A DNA stretch of 53,379 nt from a virus, in the IMG/VR virus record IMGVR_UViG_3300027801_000030, positions 1 to 53,379 of that record; one strand, written 5' to 3'. A model generated the notes under the pieces. That model was not told the origin of the DNA, ran no database searches, and saw only the letters and a program-made list of their open reading frames with translations. Made by a program: the position numbers and the translations under genes. The first letter of the stretch is position 1. Each line of letters opens with the position of its first letter. This document shows, piece by piece, positions 7,493-36,031 of the stretch.

Positions 7493-9129
<1,637 letters not shown>

Positions 9130-27675: not shown

Positions 27676-29733
27676 TTATTTGCTTGTAGCTATAAATACG
27701 CCATTCCAGTCTTTAGGCAAGTCTTGTGTTAATTGAAATTCACAGCGTTCAATCCACATAGCATAGTAGCCTTTCATTTTGCCTTCAAATGCATCTGTTA
27801 ACTTTTCGCATAAGTTAATTGCTCTATTAAACTCCTGATTGAGATAATGATTATACATGTCTTCGTGCATCTGTTTTGCTTTAGCATACTTAGTTTTCTT
27901 AATATCAAGTACTGTGTATATTTCTATACCGACTGTTTTTCCTTTTACTGCTAAGTCGTCTACTTTTAGATAAAAGAAATCGTTCTTAGTATGCTTATAT
28001 GTGTCGCCGCCCACAAGGAGTAAACAGCCATACTCTTTACATTTGCTTTCTATCCTCGCGGCAGTACTAACTGCATCTCCGAGTATGTCATATGAGTGTC
28101 TTGCAGTAGAGCCCATTTCCCCAATATAGCCGAGTCCAGTATTAATACCAGCACCCATACCAATAGGTGGTCTGCCTTCTTTAACAATTTTATTATTAAA
28201 CTCTTCAACTGCTTTAAGCATTAACAGTCCTGTTTGGACTGCACTCTTAGGATGGTCTGGATCATCCATAGGAGCATTATGTATATGCATACTAGCATCG
28301 CCGATGTACTTAATCACCATACCGTCTGCATCAAGTATAGGTTGTGTTATTGCATCCATATACCCATTCATTATTTCTGTTAACCCTTTAACATCATCGC
28401 CAAAGCTCTCGCCTAGCGGAGTAAAGCCACGCAAATCTGAGAAGCATATACTTACTTCTTTTTTCATTCCGTCTTTGATTAGTCCTGGATTTTCTTGTAG
28501 CATACGCACTACTGTCGGAGAGGCATATCCTGCAAATTGTTTTTGTATCTCGGCTCTTAGTTTAAATTGTACATAGAAGTTGTTAAACGACGTCTGTGTG
28601 AACACTAGGAACCCTGCTAGTACCGGGAAGGTAGCATCAAACAATACTAAGTTTGCTGTATAAGAATGTATACTATAATACACAATTCCTCCTAATACAG
28701 CAATAACAGTTGGCATACTTGCCCATATAGGTGCTTTATATACTACAGTCATGACTAATAGCATAGTCAACAACGCACACAGAAGCTCTGTAACAGCACT
28801 TAGCTGGCTACGGGTTATATTGGCCCCACTTATAATATTCTGTAGCATTTGGGCTTGTATATGCTGTGGATAGAGGTTGCCTCTTGGTGTTGCTACAGGG
28901 TTTGCAATACCTTCTGCTGTTACTCCTACAATAACAAACTTTGCACCCATATCTGGTAAACTGGTCGCATCTGTGTATTCTATTTCTTCAAAAGTATTGT
29001 TAAAGCGAATGTAAGTTGTGCCGTTTGGTTGGGTTACAATAGGATCGTACGGAGGAACTGCAATCTCTTGCACCCCTATTTCTGTTGTTTTAATTATATA
29101 ACTAGGCTTGCCTGAATTTACTCGCAACATCTCTATAGCAAAACTAGGATATAGTTTACCTTCTACTCCTATTGCTAATGGATATGTTCTTGTTTGGTTG
29201 TCTGGCTGTGGTGCAGATGCGTTAACACCGATCCCTTGTGCTGGTTGCTCTAAAAGGTTTATATTCGTTACTAAGTTTGGCCATGTTAAGATAAAGTCCT
29301 GTGCTGGTAAAGGTCCTATTGTGCCTGTACCAATGTGAGGACCTGTAGTTTTGACTCCTTTGGAACTTGGGGTTTGGGATAAAACTATGCCGTTGCCTTG
29401 TATCCATGATGCAAATACCTCGTCTCCGTTGAATCTATCTTGCTCAGGAAACATAATAGTAAATCCTATTATGCCTTGATTCTTTTGCCTGATATCGTGT
29501 AAAAGTTGAGCATACGTTGTTCTAGGAAAAGGATACTGTCCTAGCGTTGCTAAACTTTTTTCACCTAAGTTAATTATAACAACGTCTTTACTGTCTACTA
29601 TAGTATCTAACTGCTGGTAACTGTCAAACACCTGTCCTCTTAGACTTTGTAAGGGGATAGGATCGAATATTTTTAGTACTGTTAGAAGTACTATCGTCAA
29701 GAATACTGCATAACTACTATATAACCATTTCAT
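27676..29733 (-). CDS. CHASE2-domain class III adenylate cyclase
   Basis: A 685-residue membrane cyclase that should make cAMP from ATP. Order: N-terminal transmembrane segment (residues 6-22); periplasmic CHASE2 sensor (about 30-305; VFDSYQQL, VVIINLGEKSLATLGQYPFPR); three transmembrane segments (about 312-381); catalytic domain (425-610). Metal aspartates are Asp433 (CFSDLRGF) and Asp479 (YIGDAS). Lys475 and Asp549 (HSYDILGD) are the adenine-selecting pair, so ATP is the likely substrate. Arg560 of the transition-state pair is present but the usual Asn is Ser556 (GDAVSTAAR), which may lower activity. The ATG lies 5 nt after a CATAAATA late promoter. A full-length sensor cyclase in a lytic-type phage is unusual. 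Confidence 0.9.
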   Translation of the reverse strand: MKWLYSSYAVFLTIVLLTVLKIFDPIPLQSLRGQVFDSYQQLDTIVDSKDVVIINLGEKSLATLGQYPFPRTTYAQLLHDIRQKNQGIIGFTIMFPEQDRFNGDEVFASWIQGNGIVLSQTPSSKGVKTTGPHIGTGTIGPLPAQDFILTWPNLVTNINLLEQPAQGIGVNASAPQPDNQTRTYPLAIGVEGKLYPSFAIEMLRVNSGKPSYIIKTTEIGVQEIAVPPYDPIVTQPNGTTYIRFNNTFEEIEYTDATSLPDMGAKFVIVGVTAEGIANPVATPRGNLYPQHIQAQMLQNIISGANITRSQLSAVTELLCALLTMLLVMTVVYKAPIWASMPTVIAVLGGIVYYSIHSYTANLVLFDATFPVLAGFLVFTQTSFNNFYVQFKLRAEIQKQFAGYASPTVVRMLQENPGLIKDGMKKEVSICFSDLRGFTPLGESFGDDVKGLTEIMNGYMDAITQPILDADGMVIKYIGDASMHIHNAPMDDPDHPKSAVQTGLLMLKAVEEFNNKIVKEGRPPIGMGAGINTGLGYIGEMGSTARHSYDILGDAVSTAARIESKCKEYGCLLLVGGDTYKHTKNDFFYLKVDDLAVKGKTVGIEIYTVLDIKKTKYAKAKQMHEDMYNHYLNQEFNRAINLCEKLTDAFEGKMKGYYAMWIERCEFQLTQDLPKDWNGVFIATSK

Positions 29734-33200: not shown

Positions 33201-33436
33201 ACAGTTCTTGTATATTTCTGGCCTTGCCAGTCAAAGTCAAATCCTATTGAAATAGGACCGCAACTACCATCATCAGCCGAAAAGCATTCTGTTCCTGTAT
33301 TGTAGATATCGTATAAGGTACTGCCATCGTGTCCAATAGTAACTGAACCGCCCATAGTGACATCCGCGTTACTGTTAGGTGATACTAACGCTATTAGTAG
33401 CAATACTGCAAGAGATGTTAGATGTTTGATTGCCAT
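30203..33436 (-). CDS. Giant secreted acidic protein with NIDO-like N-terminus
   Basis: A 1077-residue exported protein. Signal peptide residues 1-24 (MAIKHLTSLAVLLLIALV). Residues ~25-270 look like a NIDO (nidogen) domain: LPYQDETLYPFWTDL, DYVVFGWYFMQEY, NSFEVILND and VVGAQFDDSN. Residues ~275-345 are cysteine-rich with a repeated C-x(n)-YSQ-x-CPGY pattern. Then follow a long Asp/Glu/Tyr-rich region, a polar helix-forming EEFTEEEFTEED stretch, a Ser/Gly-rich linker and a C-terminal helical domain ending in KTQEKLKEMIYSQY. NIDO domains occur in extracellular adhesion proteins. The net charge is extremely negative. It overlaps the Asn/Thr-repeat protein gene by 19 bases. Function unknown; a secreted matrix or cell-surface protein is inferred. 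Confidence 0.8.
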   Translation of the reverse strand: MAIKHLTSLAVLLLIALVSPNSNADVTMGGSVTIGHDGSTLYDIYNTGTECFSADDGSCGPISIGFDFDWQGQKYTRTVMGTNGCLKLLRWDDSSSGGSSCSDYTPQALPYQDETLYPFWTDLIRGTGTGACAQMFPGNSSYSSGQECSVASKMMYQTFDDYVVFGWYFMQEYNRPSSNSFEVILNDHNGSNFALTDPAWCCEGDEDTFEFRYRELDIENHNVVVGAQFDDSNYIQAILYTNDSTSNWDSLDQGTLEDGGVLKYNPNGEGQPSECVNNPGFSQDCEGYSAYQFGIECVNDVHYSQYCPGYAQAYEETQFEQQCDIDQLSDANCPYYAQELQLQQDAMAMMTDDPEYYDNYIMDDGGYSNTAHEDQYGYEDNSLGDDGSQDGTELYDDAGYNGYDDGRDAYASENEDCGACGYDPREDMNIQYDDLNPEQQMLVDQGLSLQDAVLITMGEDDLLALGLDPSIQFNGHDPGDIVDEQLGESYDYNVHNDVFDTQEDWLMENDPQWALEEQQWQSEMEGTYGENWEDTMTMADWYEVDVAEFGQEQVDEWYGTDVAFDDTGTIVWEEYDYSIDAEMAYDLVADGFAEHDDLIGLIAQEGDERSAEDCPTCAMEDFFREHDDEEAFFELYDEDVEFYADETELYDEDYAREEEFTEEEFTEEDILEDFLNDEAFEELINEEELAELIMSETDERLDDIDINEERDESRVETEEDREEDREDTREKSQSKSVNNIASSQKGPVTSNSGSSVVNDSGSSSSFSSNNSWEPSGGGMSMAVSEMKIEFSDSATANIVEEVLADGSGESVQVMDGSSQQDGSVSQDGSSSFQNDDGSSSSSSSSTGQLVESSSTGDDTSLLFAQDQLGQSSIDISNIDAGPSLSAFDVAEEFAETQTEQEEAQMFIESFDDGSSGGLSQTAQDFGDNLTDAIASGTGLTEFLSQEQPTFTQFEVQQQTFQEQKQTDAVESLADRMGSVVASANLATELQAVQQGTGDGAQYGDQTIAVAYIGYTAGFSDYTSQMQLADQQQWYGSDQVYPGQKNTDNVQSFYMMAGKTQEKLKEMIYSQYKELQEN

Positions 33437-34974
33437 TTGTCCTCACAATAGCCTTTACTTTTTTTCGGTTTTTTCCCTGATTTCTTAGTGCATGTTCTCA
33501 TAAACTCATCAAAGTCTTTACCGCCGTTTAACTCTTTAGCATCTTCCGCCGGTCTTTTAGAAATCTTTTTTCTGCCAAACCAACCTGTTTTAGCGTCTGC
33601 CCTTTCATCGCTGTTATCAGCCCAGGCTACTGTAGCTTCAGCACCAATGGCACCCATGTAAGGACATGGTGTTCCAGCCATTTCCATTGCTTTAAATACA
33701 CGTTCGTCTTGACACATTAAACTAACTGCCGCTACTTTCATGCCCATATCGTATATAGTTTTAGAAAGTTTAATACGTTCACAGTTCATGTCTCTAACTG
33801 ACTTACCACCACTTAGTCCAAATACTTGTCCTTGAAAAGCACCTGATATACCAGTTGTACATAAGTCTTGAGAATAACTTGACCCAATGCTTGGTGCTAT
33901 AGCACTAGCCGGTGGAGCCTTTGTTGTTATCTCTTGCTTAATAGTTTGGTTAGTTTCATTTTTGTTAATGTTTTCGTTCTTGTTGTTATTGTTATTCGTG
34001 TTATTATTGGTATTGGTATTGTTTGTTTCTACTTTACTATCACTAGTACTGGTGCTAGTATTGGTGTTATTATTATCGTTTGTATTACTGTTGGTGTTGG
34101 TGTTGTTACTGGTCGAATCTGAAGTTGAATTGTTGGTGTTCGTATTATTATTCGTGTTGCTGTTCGTATTGGTATTATTGCTATTTACATTTTGGTCAAT
34201 GGTACTATTGTTTGTATTATTATTAGTATTGGTGTTATTTGCAGAACTATTGACTGTTGAATTGTTTGTGTTGGTGTTATTGTTGGTACTGGTTGAGGTA
34301 TTATTGTTCGTATTATTATTCGTGTTGCTGTTGGTGTTATTCGTTCCACCAGATGAAACATTATTGTTGGTATTGGTACTATTGTTTGTATTACTGTTGG
34401 TGTTGGTGTTATTATTGGTGTTCGTATTGGCGTTCGTATTATTATTCGTGTTGGTACTGGTTGAGGTATTATTGTTCGTGTTATTATTCGTGTTGGTGTT
34501 GGTGTTGGTGTTGGTGTTCGTATTGGCGTTCGTGTTATTGTTGGTACTGGTGTTCGTATTATTATTCGTGTTATTATTCGTATTATTATTCGTGTTATTA
34601 TTGGTATTGGTATTGGTGTTATTGTTGGTACTCGTGTTGGTGTTCGCGTTTGTATTATTATTGGTGCTAGTATTCGTGCTAGTGTTGGTGTTGGTGTTGT
34701 TATTGGTCGCCGTACTGGTATTGGTGTTCGTATTATTATTCGTGTTGGCGTTCGTATTGGTATTCGTATTGGTATTCGTATTATTATTCGTGTTGGTACT
34801 CGTGTTGGTACCAGTAGTATTCGTAGTCGTGGTATTCGTAGTAGTGGTATCACTTGTACTAGCTTCACAATATTCTGTTCCTGCTGTACATGTACCTGTT
34901 GCCTGACCTTCTGCTGTAATAGGTAAACCAAAAAAGACAATCATGCCCATGACTGATAAAAGTTTTTTCATCAT
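33418..34974 (-). CDS. Secreted Asn/Thr-repeat protein with conserved C-terminal domain
   Basis: A 518-residue exported protein. The start was moved from a longer frame to the ATGATG at 34969-34974, which has GGAG just upstream and a late promoter about 80 bases away. Signal peptide residues 1-22 (MMKKLLSVMGMIVFFGLPI). Residues ~35-338 are almost pure Asn and Thr (NTNTNNNTN patterns), a low-complexity, prion-like or fibre-like stalk. The C-terminal ~170 residues are an ordered domain (APPASAIAPSIGSSYSQDLC, GLSGGKSVRDMNCERIKLSK, MGMKVAAVSLMCQDERVF, AGTPCPYMGAIG) with paired cysteines, a pattern I have seen in other marine phage proteins of unknown role, and a lysine-rich tail. It may be a surface or matrix protein; function not recognised. 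Confidence 0.8.
   Translation of the reverse strand: MMKKLLSVMGMIVFFGLPITAEGQATGTCTAGTEYCEASTSDTTTTNTTTTNTTGTNTSTNTNNNTNTNTNTNTNANTNNNTNTNTSTATNNNTNTNTSTNTSTNNNTNANTNTSTNNNTNTNTNNNTNNNTNNNTNNNTNTSTNNNTNANTNTNTNTNTNTNNNTNNNTSTSTNTNNNTNANTNTNNNTNTNSNTNNSTNTNNNVSSGGTNNTNSNTNNNTNNNTSTSTNNNTNTNNSTVNSSANNTNTNNNTNNSTIDQNVNSNNTNTNSNTNNNTNTNNSTSDSTSNNTNTNSNTNDNNNTNTSTSTSDSKVETNNTNTNNNTNNNNNKNENINKNETNQTIKQEITTKAPPASAIAPSIGSSYSQDLCTTGISGAFQGQVFGLSGGKSVRDMNCERIKLSKTIYDMGMKVAAVSLMCQDERVFKAMEMAGTPCPYMGAIGAEATVAWADNSDERADAKTGWFGRKKISKRPAEDAKELNGGKDFDEFMRTCTKKSGKKPKKSKGYCEDKWQSNI
33960..34870. repeat. Asn/Thr-codon low-complexity repeat, about 0.9 kb
   Basis: A run of short degenerate repeats of AAC/AAT and ACC/ACG/ACT codons on the minus strand (gttattattcgtgttggta-like on plus). 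It opens long false frames on both strands. Length variation by slippage or recombination is likely. Confidence 0.9.
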
Positions 34975-35050
34975 TTTCTCCGTGCAAGGGCAAGTGTTTT
35001 GTTTGGGTAGCTTGTGTAGTGCGTGTGTCGTCGTACCCTGTTTGTATATG

Positions 35051-35059
35051 TATTTATCA
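35051..35059 (-). promoter_or_regulatory. Late promoter TGATAAATA for the secreted-protein cluster
   Basis: TGATAAATA on the minus strand, about 77 bases before the Asn/Thr-repeat gene; probably drives 34974 down to 29749. Confidence 0.75.
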
Positions 35060-35087
35060 AAAATGAGACCAGTCTCAGTTTTAACCA

Positions 35088-35115
35088 TAAAAAAAGGGCA
35101 GTTTACACTACCCTT
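35088..35115 (-). terminator. Rho-independent terminator
   Basis: On the minus strand AAGGGTAG-TGTAAA-CTGCCCTTTTTTT. It follows the -1 frame stop at 35150 by about 35 bases and so closes the lipoprotein transcript including its frameshift extension. Confidence 0.85.
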
Positions 35116-35149
35116 AATTAGTTCATAATATTATCTTGAAAGAATATTA

Positions 35150-35547
35150 CTACGAGTCGCACTCTGCAGGATTGTCGTTACAGTATATCATGATACTTTT
35201 TACAAGTGCCTTGATATCCTGATCCGCCTGTTTCTCATCTGCCCTTTTCGAGAACAGGCGAGCTACTTTCCCGCTGAGTCGTCTTTATCTTTTTGAAGTT
35301 CGTCAGTTTGTTTATCAACTTGGTCTGCAACTGTGTCTATTGCGCCGGTTGTAATATCCGTTGCTACTGTTGCTATGTTAATAACGTCATCTGAAACTGC
35401 TGTTACCATTGTGGCGGCTCCGCCTACAATTGCATCAACTGTTCCTGTGACAATCTCTGTTCCTGCGTCCCAGGCCCCTCCAACTGAGGCGCATCCTACA
35501 ATACTTGAACAAAGTACTACTACGAAGAACGAAATCAAATTTTTCAT
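35150..35547 (-). CDS. Predicted -1 frameshift product of the lipoprotein gene (132 aa)
   Basis: This is the extended form of the lipoprotein. At 35266-35272 the 0-frame reads GCG GGA AAG TAG; G GGA AAG is a classic -1 slippery heptamer (the one used in the lambda tail G/GT gene). Five bases later an 11-bp stem with one bulge (35225-35260) could stall the ribosome. The -1 frame then stays open for 38 codons (VARLFSKRADEKQADQ, ALVKSIMIYCNDNPAECDS) and stops at 35150-35152, before the terminator. The added tail is charged, helical and ends with two cysteines. A separate gene is unlikely, as this frame has no ATG near its start and no ribosome binding site. Not tested; the call is from sequence. 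Confidence 0.6.
35225..35272 (-). other. Programmed -1 frameshift signal: slippery heptamer, spacer and hairpin
   Basis: GGGAAAG at 35266-35272, spacer of 5 nt holding the 0-frame TAG, then CGCCTGTTCTC (35250-35260) pairing with GAGAAACAGGCG (35225-35236) around a 13-nt loop. No T run follows the hairpin, so it is not an intrinsic terminator. Confidence 0.65.
35263..35547 (-). CDS. Outer-membrane-type lipoprotein (0-frame form)
   Basis: A 94-residue lipoprotein. The signal peptide MKNLISFFVVVLCSSIVGC has a lipobox SIVGC with the lipidated Cys19, followed by Ala, not Asp, so outer-membrane sorting is expected. The mature part is Ala/Val/Thr/Asp-rich and helical (DAIVGGAATMVTAVSDDV, ATVATDITTGAIDTVADQ), then a charged tail. 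Layout recalls small o-spanin-like or entericidin-like lipoproteins; a spanin role would suit a phage but there is no proof. AGGAG precedes the ATG and a TTGATAAATA late promoter lies about 55 bases upstream. A -1 frameshift extension is predicted at its 3' end. Confidence 0.82.
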   Translation of the reverse strand: MKNLISFFVVVLCSSIVGCASVGGAWDAGTEIVTGTVDAIVGGAATMVTAVSDDVINIATVATDITTGAIDTVADQVDKQTDELQKDKDDSAGK

Positions 35548-35599
35548 GATTAACTCTCCTTTTATAAAGTTATAAAGCCAACTGCTATTATAACATATA

Positions 35600-35608
35600 T
35601 ATTTATCA
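35600..35608 (-). promoter_or_regulatory. Late promoter TGATAAATA for the lipoprotein gene
   Basis: TGATAAATA on the minus strand, 52 bases before the lipoprotein ATG. A TATAAT lies about 10 bases further downstream, so the gene might also have weak early expression. Confidence 0.7.
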
Positions 35609-35632
35609 ACTTGTTAGTACATACTAACCGGA

Positions 35633-35842
35633 TTATGACAAATAATCTGCATTATTATACTCTTTATTTGCGATATCATATAATTCATAGTGTGTTAAAA
35701 CTATAAACATTAGGAATATAAACAGTAAGATAGAACTCACAATTAGATAAATTATAAAAGGAAAGAAGAATGTAAATATTGATATGTGTGCAAACAATAT
35801 TGAGTAGACGTAAAATTTAAGGCTGTTACTGTATTTCTTCAC
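35633..35842 (-). CDS. Small two-helix membrane protein
   Basis: A 69-residue protein with two hydrophobic helices (about residues 10-32, FYVYSILFAHISIFTFFFP, and 33-52, IYLIVSSILLFIFLMFIVL) and a short polar tail (YDIANKEYNNADYLS). The start is GTG at 35840-35842; no ATG lies upstream in frame. It overlaps the end of the 35826-35996 small gene by 17 bases, so translation is probably coupled. Phage small membrane proteins of this size can be holins, antiholins or superinfection-exclusion proteins; no family is recognised. Confidence 0.6.
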   Translation of the reverse strand: MKKYSNSLKFYVYSILFAHISIFTFFFPFIIYLIVSSILLFIFLMFIVLTHYELYDIANKEYNNADYLS

Positions 35843-35996
35843 TGGTTGATGTAAGGTTTTCTAAGAAATCAGCCCTATGCCAAGAGTAATCAACTAAAAT
35901 ATCAATCGTAAGGACTATTAAGACTAATGTCATGATTATTGATAGATATATGTTTATGGCCGCGGTTATCTTTAACCACTTGATCATATGTTTCAT
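35826..35996 (-). CDS. 56-aa single-helix membrane protein
   Basis: A short gene of 56 codons. The product MKHMIKWLKITAAINIYLSI... has a basic N-terminus, one transmembrane helix (about residues 10-34) and a polar, acidic C-terminus ending TSTSEEIQ. The ATG lies 7 bases after the TATAAT of a perfect sigma70-type promoter, so the mRNA has almost no leader. It shares that promoter with the next small membrane protein. An early-expressed membrane protein pair could alter the host envelope or exclude other phages; this is inference. Confidence 0.6.
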   Translation of the reverse strand: MKHMIKWLKITAAINIYLSIIMTLVLIVLTIDILVDYSWHRADFLENLTSTSEEIQ

Positions 35997-36003
35997 AAGT
36001 TAT

Positions 36004-36031
36004 ATTATACACGCTTTATAAAACGTGTCAA
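36004..36031 (-). promoter_or_regulatory. Sigma70-type early promoter with near-palindromic spacer
   Basis: TTGACA, 16 bases, TATAAT on the minus strand: both hexamers perfect. A 20-bp inverted repeat (ACACGCTTTATAAAACGTGT, one mismatched pair, 36009-36028) fills the spacer between the boxes, an ideal site for a repressor. Confidence 0.82.

Follow-up and report, generated by a model that had tools for sequence, protein, structure and literature searches.

The window, by which is meant the whole stretch of 53,379 nucleotides of marine phage DNA analysed here, carries on its minus strand a small gene for a predicted lipoprotein, followed in the -1 frame by an open extension (Table 1). The gene is preceded by two frames for small proteins, s56 and s69, and the resulting three-gene unit looks self-contained, because a promoter-like site stands before it and a terminator-like stem after it. 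The perfect match to the sigma70-type consensus lies inside a curli cassette, before s56. The s56 protein, whose start is (M)KHMIKWLK, is nearly invariant and still adjoins the lipoprotein gene away from curli cassettes.

Table 1. Features of the lipoprotein locus, in window coordinates
Feature	Position	Strand	Remarks
Sigma70-type promoter-like TTGACA-16-TATAAT	36004..36031	minus	12/12 consensus match only; 5' of the three-gene unit
s56, small one-TM protein (MKHMIKWLK...)	35826..35996	minus	directly 5' of the lipoprotein gene in many clades
s69, another small hydrophobic protein	35633..35842	minus	found in part of the relatives
Shine-Dalgarno-like AAAAGGAGAG (AAGGAG)	35554..35563	minus	5' of the lipoprotein start
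0-frame lipoprotein ORF	35263..35547	minus	94 aa; signal peptide, lipobox IVGC (Cys19); ends ...SAGK-stop
Slippery heptamer G_GGA_AAG	35266..35272	minus	P-site GGA, A-site AAG; kind kept in 76/83 members
0-frame stop TAG	35263..35265	minus	abuts heptamer
-1 extension	35150..35266	minus	38 codons + TAG (35152-35150); predicted helix
Putative stimulatory stem-loop	35224..35261	minus	12-13 bp, one bulge, spacer 4-5 nt
YCNDNPAEC, conserved Y-C-x2-N-P-x-E-C motif	35159..35185	minus	two cysteines
Intrinsic terminator-like stem + T run	35094..35115	minus	3' of the -1 stop; consensus match only

The lipoprotein gene and its surroundings

The protein is inferred to be a lipoprotein from its signal peptide and lipobox. 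Cys19 is invariant among the homologues and their N-terminus is hydrophobic, so the lipobox criterion of a bacterial lipoprotein is met; lipidation and location are themselves inferences from sequence alone. An outer-membrane location, as had been proposed earlier, is unproven and rests on the lipobox only. No family of Pfam or NCBIfam, the Csg families included, scored above cut-off for the lipoprotein, and PHROGs gave only weak matches, either well under the cut-off or with families whose function is unknown. In PHROGs neither the lipoprotein nor s56 matched a spanin. The AlphaFold model of the 0-frame protein consists of one low-confidence helix (pLDDT 52); it is unreliable and was not used.

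Only the neighbouring genes match curli families, namely CsgG (E 5e-48), CsgF (5e-16) and the curlin repeat, together with FecR and a CHASE2-adenylate cyclase. The order in most relatives whose flanking sequence is long enough is CsgF-CsgG-curlin-FecR-curlin-s56(-s69)-lipoprotein-cyclase. The relatives that lack the extension carry the gene on the opposite side of the curli cassette, before CsgF. In several clades the available flanking sequence contains no curli genes. The lipoprotein gene of these clades comes after s56 or, for L068, L074 and L085, after a spanin pair, and L068 has separate matching spanins.

Some further features of the window deserve mention. The CHASE2-adenylate cyclase (27676-29733) ends the curli cassette, and the use that a phage makes of cyclic AMP/GMP is unclear. 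A frame of 556 codons (33418-35088) encodes a long Asn/Thr repeat (TNTNNNT...), and its end matches phrog_20531, of unknown function. The large terminase subunit (7493-9103) is nearest to those of PA5oct-like jumbo Pseudomonas phages, with 58% identity, and the window may therefore come from a genome of much greater size. Among the relatives, the contig L197 measures 250 kb.

The slip site and the -1 extension

On the minus strand the 0-frame ends GCG GGA AAG TAG. The slip motifs that work most efficiently in E. coli are C_CCA_AAG, G_GGA_AAG and A_AAA_AAG (PMC4066793). Reading on in the -1 frame adds the residues VARLFSK...YCNDNPAECDS, for a total of 132 aa. AlphaFold predicts a helix for the extension alone (pLDDT 82), plus a short second helix at the cysteines.

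A sequence-only reading of the locus had claimed this 0-frame end with its heptamer, an 11-bp stem with one bulge five bases further on (35225-35260), and a -1 frame open for 38 codons to a stop just before the terminator, giving two forms of 94 and 132 aa. The heptamer is seen in the sequence as claimed. The stem also held, the fold giving 12 bp at 35224-35261, and the reading frames held, while the products are unproven. Its description of the extension as a charged helix with two cysteines holds as a prediction (AlphaFold helix, C-x6-C).

The slip-site arrangement exceeds chance. As a control, 423 ORFs of at least 90 aa were collected from the window and 42 related loci. In 29 of them the stop was preceded, at a distance of 0-1 codon, by a canonical heptamer, and 25 of these 29 are the lipoprotein gene. 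The heptamer stood in place in 4 of the other ORFs (about 398), none of which also had an open -1 extension of 36 codons; the combination of heptamer and an open -1 extension of at least 36 codons was thus confined to the 25 lipoprotein-gene ORFs.

Conservation among relatives

The relatives were gathered from IMG/VR, the queries being the lipoprotein and alignments built on it, the extension peptide by itself, and a deeper alignment. This gave 93 distinct relatives that differ around the slip site, most of them from uncultivated contigs. No relatives were found in alignment searches of GTDB cellular genomes or by tblastn of 50,697 GenBank phage records with four diverse members.

The extension, out of frame and ending in C-x6-C, is present in 83 of the 93 relatives. 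A canonical X_XXY_YYZ heptamer lies 0-1 codon before the 0-frame stop in 76 of these 83 (AAAAAAG in 50, GGGAAAG in 17, CCCAAAA in 7, CCCAAAC and GGGAAAC in 1 each), and a near-canonical G_GAA_AAG in 3 more; first triplets of the G_GA_ type are also known from other systems (PMC5009743). The -1 frame is open through C-x6-C in 79 of the 83, and the remaining 4 use the +1/-2 frame. An in-frame fusion of lipoprotein and extension occurs in none of the 83. The earlier frameshift interpretation is supported by these counts, having survived refuting conditions set in advance, which were homologues that lack the heptamer or whose -1 frame is interrupted by stops. The lysine codon at the A site is AAG in 66 of 73 cases, as compared to 15% of the other Lys codons in the same genes.

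The strongest single test is the search with the extension peptide alone, a query that carries no lipoprotein information. What it added were lipoproteins whose divergence had put them beyond the reach of the first lipoprotein searches, and in these too the extension is out of frame. The heptamer is absent from all 10 relatives without the extension. L233 and L132 are identical at 82 of 91 residues (90%), yet AAAAAAG has become AAACAGG in L233 and the extension is gone. L233 and L239, compared with L132, represent a recent joint loss of heptamer and extension among close relatives.

A sequencing error or a pseudogene was considered and rejected, because the arrangement recurs in 79 distinct sequences.

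The RNA signal

In the window, the minimum-energy fold of the 58 nt after the heptamer pairs 35261-35250 with 35236-35224 (12 bp, one bulge, spacer of 4 nt, -16.2 kcal/mol), with z scores of -1.8 for 58 nt and -2.7 for 45 nt. RNAalifold on mixed clades gave a poor consensus because MAFFT misaligns the loops, and it was replaced by per-sequence folding with a position control. For 45-nt segments of 28 representatives, folding z averages -2.35 directly behind the heptamer, as compared to values between -0.05 and -0.85 at ten other offsets, and z falls below -1.5 after the heptamer in 20 of the 28. The stem arms vary widely between clades yet still pair (CCTTTTCTCT/AGAGAAAAGG, CTCTATCTTC/GAAGGTAGAG, GCCATTC/GAATGGC), and the spacing stays at about 3-7 nt. 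The position of the stem-loop is conserved though its sequence changes. Rfam had no match in 34900-35700.

The signal is not uniform. In the CCCAAAA clade and a few others folding is no better than that of shuffled sequence, so that the stimulator in these cases is either weak or of another kind. The L155-L161 and L150-L154 clades have only a weak near hairpin; in them GCTCAT, immediately 3' of the slip site, can base-pair with ATGAGC some 70 nt further on, with a small hairpin between the two. The extension of L027, L067, L068, L069, L080 and L087 contains a further conserved hairpin (AGAAGCAGA...TCTGCTTCT), about 100-150 nt past the slip site; in L085 its arms are changed and still pair. The alignment of the CCCAAAA clade places this second hairpin about 110 nt downstream. 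It is possible that it acts as a distal stimulator.

Coding nature of the extension

The extension evolves as a protein under purifying selection. Its dN/dS is 0.20-0.28 in four clades, 0.30 in the large clade and 0.54 in the CCCAAAA clade, as compared to 0.15-0.29 for the 0-frame gene, with the caveat that synonymous sites are saturated in two sets. Y-C-x2-N-P-x-E-C is nearly invariant across extensions, and conservation begins right at the junction. In the CCCAAAA clade, pS is 0.32 in the extension versus 0.52 in the gene, and this lower synonymous divergence suggests an extra constraint at the RNA level. In 17 of 79 members the -1 frame has no ATG, GTG or TTG ahead of the first conserved Cys, and separate initiation of the extension is therefore impossible there.

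The four members in the other frame (L150, L152, L153 and L154) are divergent sequences whose extension occupies the +1/-2 frame with respect to that of the lipoprotein and whose slip region reads GAA AAG AAG TAR. Purifying selection acts on their extension too (dN/dS 0.21). With a plain -1 shift only a few residues would be added before a stop, and no recognisable classical slip site is found in any of the four. This frame-switched clade is unexplained, and it counts against a uniform classical -1 account.

Comparison with known systems

The tail assembly chaperone G/GT of lambda shares with the present gene the G_GGA_AAG heptamer, a stop soon after it and a C-terminal extension of the minority form. 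It is a cytoplasmic chaperone of the tail module, whereas here the product is a lipoprotein encoded beside curli-type genes and a strong stem-loop follows close behind the heptamer; the two have no sequence relation. Nor is the positional criterion of a tail chaperone met, namely a gene just upstream of the tape-measure gene, as this gene lies between curlin-like genes and the CHASE2 cyclase. The -1 frameshifts of dnaX and of the IS3/IS911 family (A_AAA_AAG with a 3' structure) belong to the same class of slip motif and have a short-spaced 3' hairpin. They concern a polymerase and transposases, whereas the lipoprotein gene has a 0-frame stop abutting the heptamer and an exported product is predicted. 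T7 gene 10A/10B is likewise a phage protein with a short and a -1 extended form, but it is a capsid protein with another slip site and a long-range stimulator.

With respect to gene order, the curli operon of pelagimyophages (HTVC008M) and Melnitz phages has the same CsgF-CsgG-curlin-FecR-CHASE2 cyclase arrangement (PMC7029224). The HTVC008M and Melnitz isolates carry the curli cassette and no relative of the lipoprotein detectable by tblastn. The function of the pelagimyophage cassettes has been called unclear, and neither a lipoprotein nor a frameshift was mentioned (PMC7029224).

Proposed mechanism

It is very likely (probability about 0.9) that the lipoprotein gene yields two proteins through classical bacterial -1 programmed ribosomal frameshifting, although no trans-frame peptide or reporter data are available. 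Every defining feature that can be tested by comparison is met: the heptamer, the positioned short-spaced 3' structure and a coding -1 frame without a start of its own are shown, as is the joint loss of heptamer and extension. That the slippage is ribosomal and not that of a polymerase is inferred, because 26 members have no long A run.

According to this mechanism, most ribosomes would read GGA AAG TAG and terminate, releasing the 94-aa lipoprotein precursor. In some of the ribosomes that stand on G_GGA_AAG and face the hairpin, the tRNAs of the P and A sites would re-pair one base back, on GGG AAA. The shifted ribosomes would then read GTA GCT... and add 38 residues, predicted to form a charged amphipathic helix with two cysteines, six residues apart, at its end. 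It is inferred that both forms are produced and lipidated, the long one as a minority subunit, and that the two extension cysteines form a disulphide in the oxidising envelope. The earlier suggestion that the two forms stand in a fixed ratio is unproven.

Alternative explanations and possible function

The extension could be a separate small overlapping gene, with its own start or with re-initiation after the 0-frame stop. Such genes are common in phages and the window has an ATG at extension codon 26, but the 17 members without a start codon and conservation that begins at the junction make this explanation very unlikely, and it leaves unexplained both the slippery heptamers and their loss together with the extension. 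Slippage of RNA polymerase on an A run might instead produce a shifted message, as A_AAA_AAG gives a run of six or seven A in 50 members. However, the run is too short in the 26 members with GGGAAAG, CCCAAAA, CCCAAAC or GGGAAAC, which bear the same extension, and the stem-loop stands at the spacing of a ribosomal signal, with AAG favoured at the A site; this alternative is hardly tenable. Equally improbable is the view that the frameshift only delivers ribosomes to the downstream gene or past the terminator, the added peptide being irrelevant. The next gene does start at or near the -1 stop in some relatives (TAATG in L011 and L020), but the extension is under purifying selection with its nearly invariant cysteine motif, and a terminator directly follows it in the window and many relatives.

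As regards function, it is inferred that the two lipoprotein forms may act together on or beside the phage curli-type (CsgG/CsgF) secretion machinery at the outer membrane, a reading held with clearly lower confidence than the frameshift itself; any tuning of this secretion or adhesion system by the gene is likewise inferred. A role of the pair in host lysis or envelope disruption, as for spanins, remains possible: the gene adjoins Rz/Rz1-like spanin genes in one deep clade (L068, L074, L085), s56 is a small one-TM protein, and curli genes are not seen within the available flanks of several clades. Against this, the same deep clade already has a separate complete spanin pair, in the window and most relatives the gene has curlin-like genes on one side and the CHASE2 cyclase on the other, and the relatives without the extension also adjoin CsgF/CsgG. 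Returning to the curli-type reading, a bolder form of it can be entertained as no more than a possibility. A widespread family of marine phages would use frameshifting to set the proportions of two lipoprotein forms in the outer membrane, and would in this way build or gate an export machine of the curli type encoded by the phage; one branch (L150, L152, L153, L154) would have switched from -1 to +1/-2 while keeping the same extension under purifying selection.

Significance

Well-documented phage frameshifts are found mostly in tail chaperone and capsid genes. The mechanism proposed here, classical -1 frameshifting, is itself known; what is new is the gene family, undescribed as far as could be found. 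The sequence-only reading knew of no phage lipoprotein regulated in this way, and none is described in the open-access literature searched (subscription papers were outside its scope). The locus offers a deeply conserved case of frameshifting in a predicted exported lipoprotein. It also brings to light the conserved Y-C-x2-N-P-x-E-C domain, which ordinary annotation discards because it is out of frame. The natural series of slip sites and stems, with the co-loss as a control and the frame-changed branch, lends itself to the study of how recoding evolves, and the lipoprotein gene provides an entry point to the curli cassettes of marine phages, which are unexplained.
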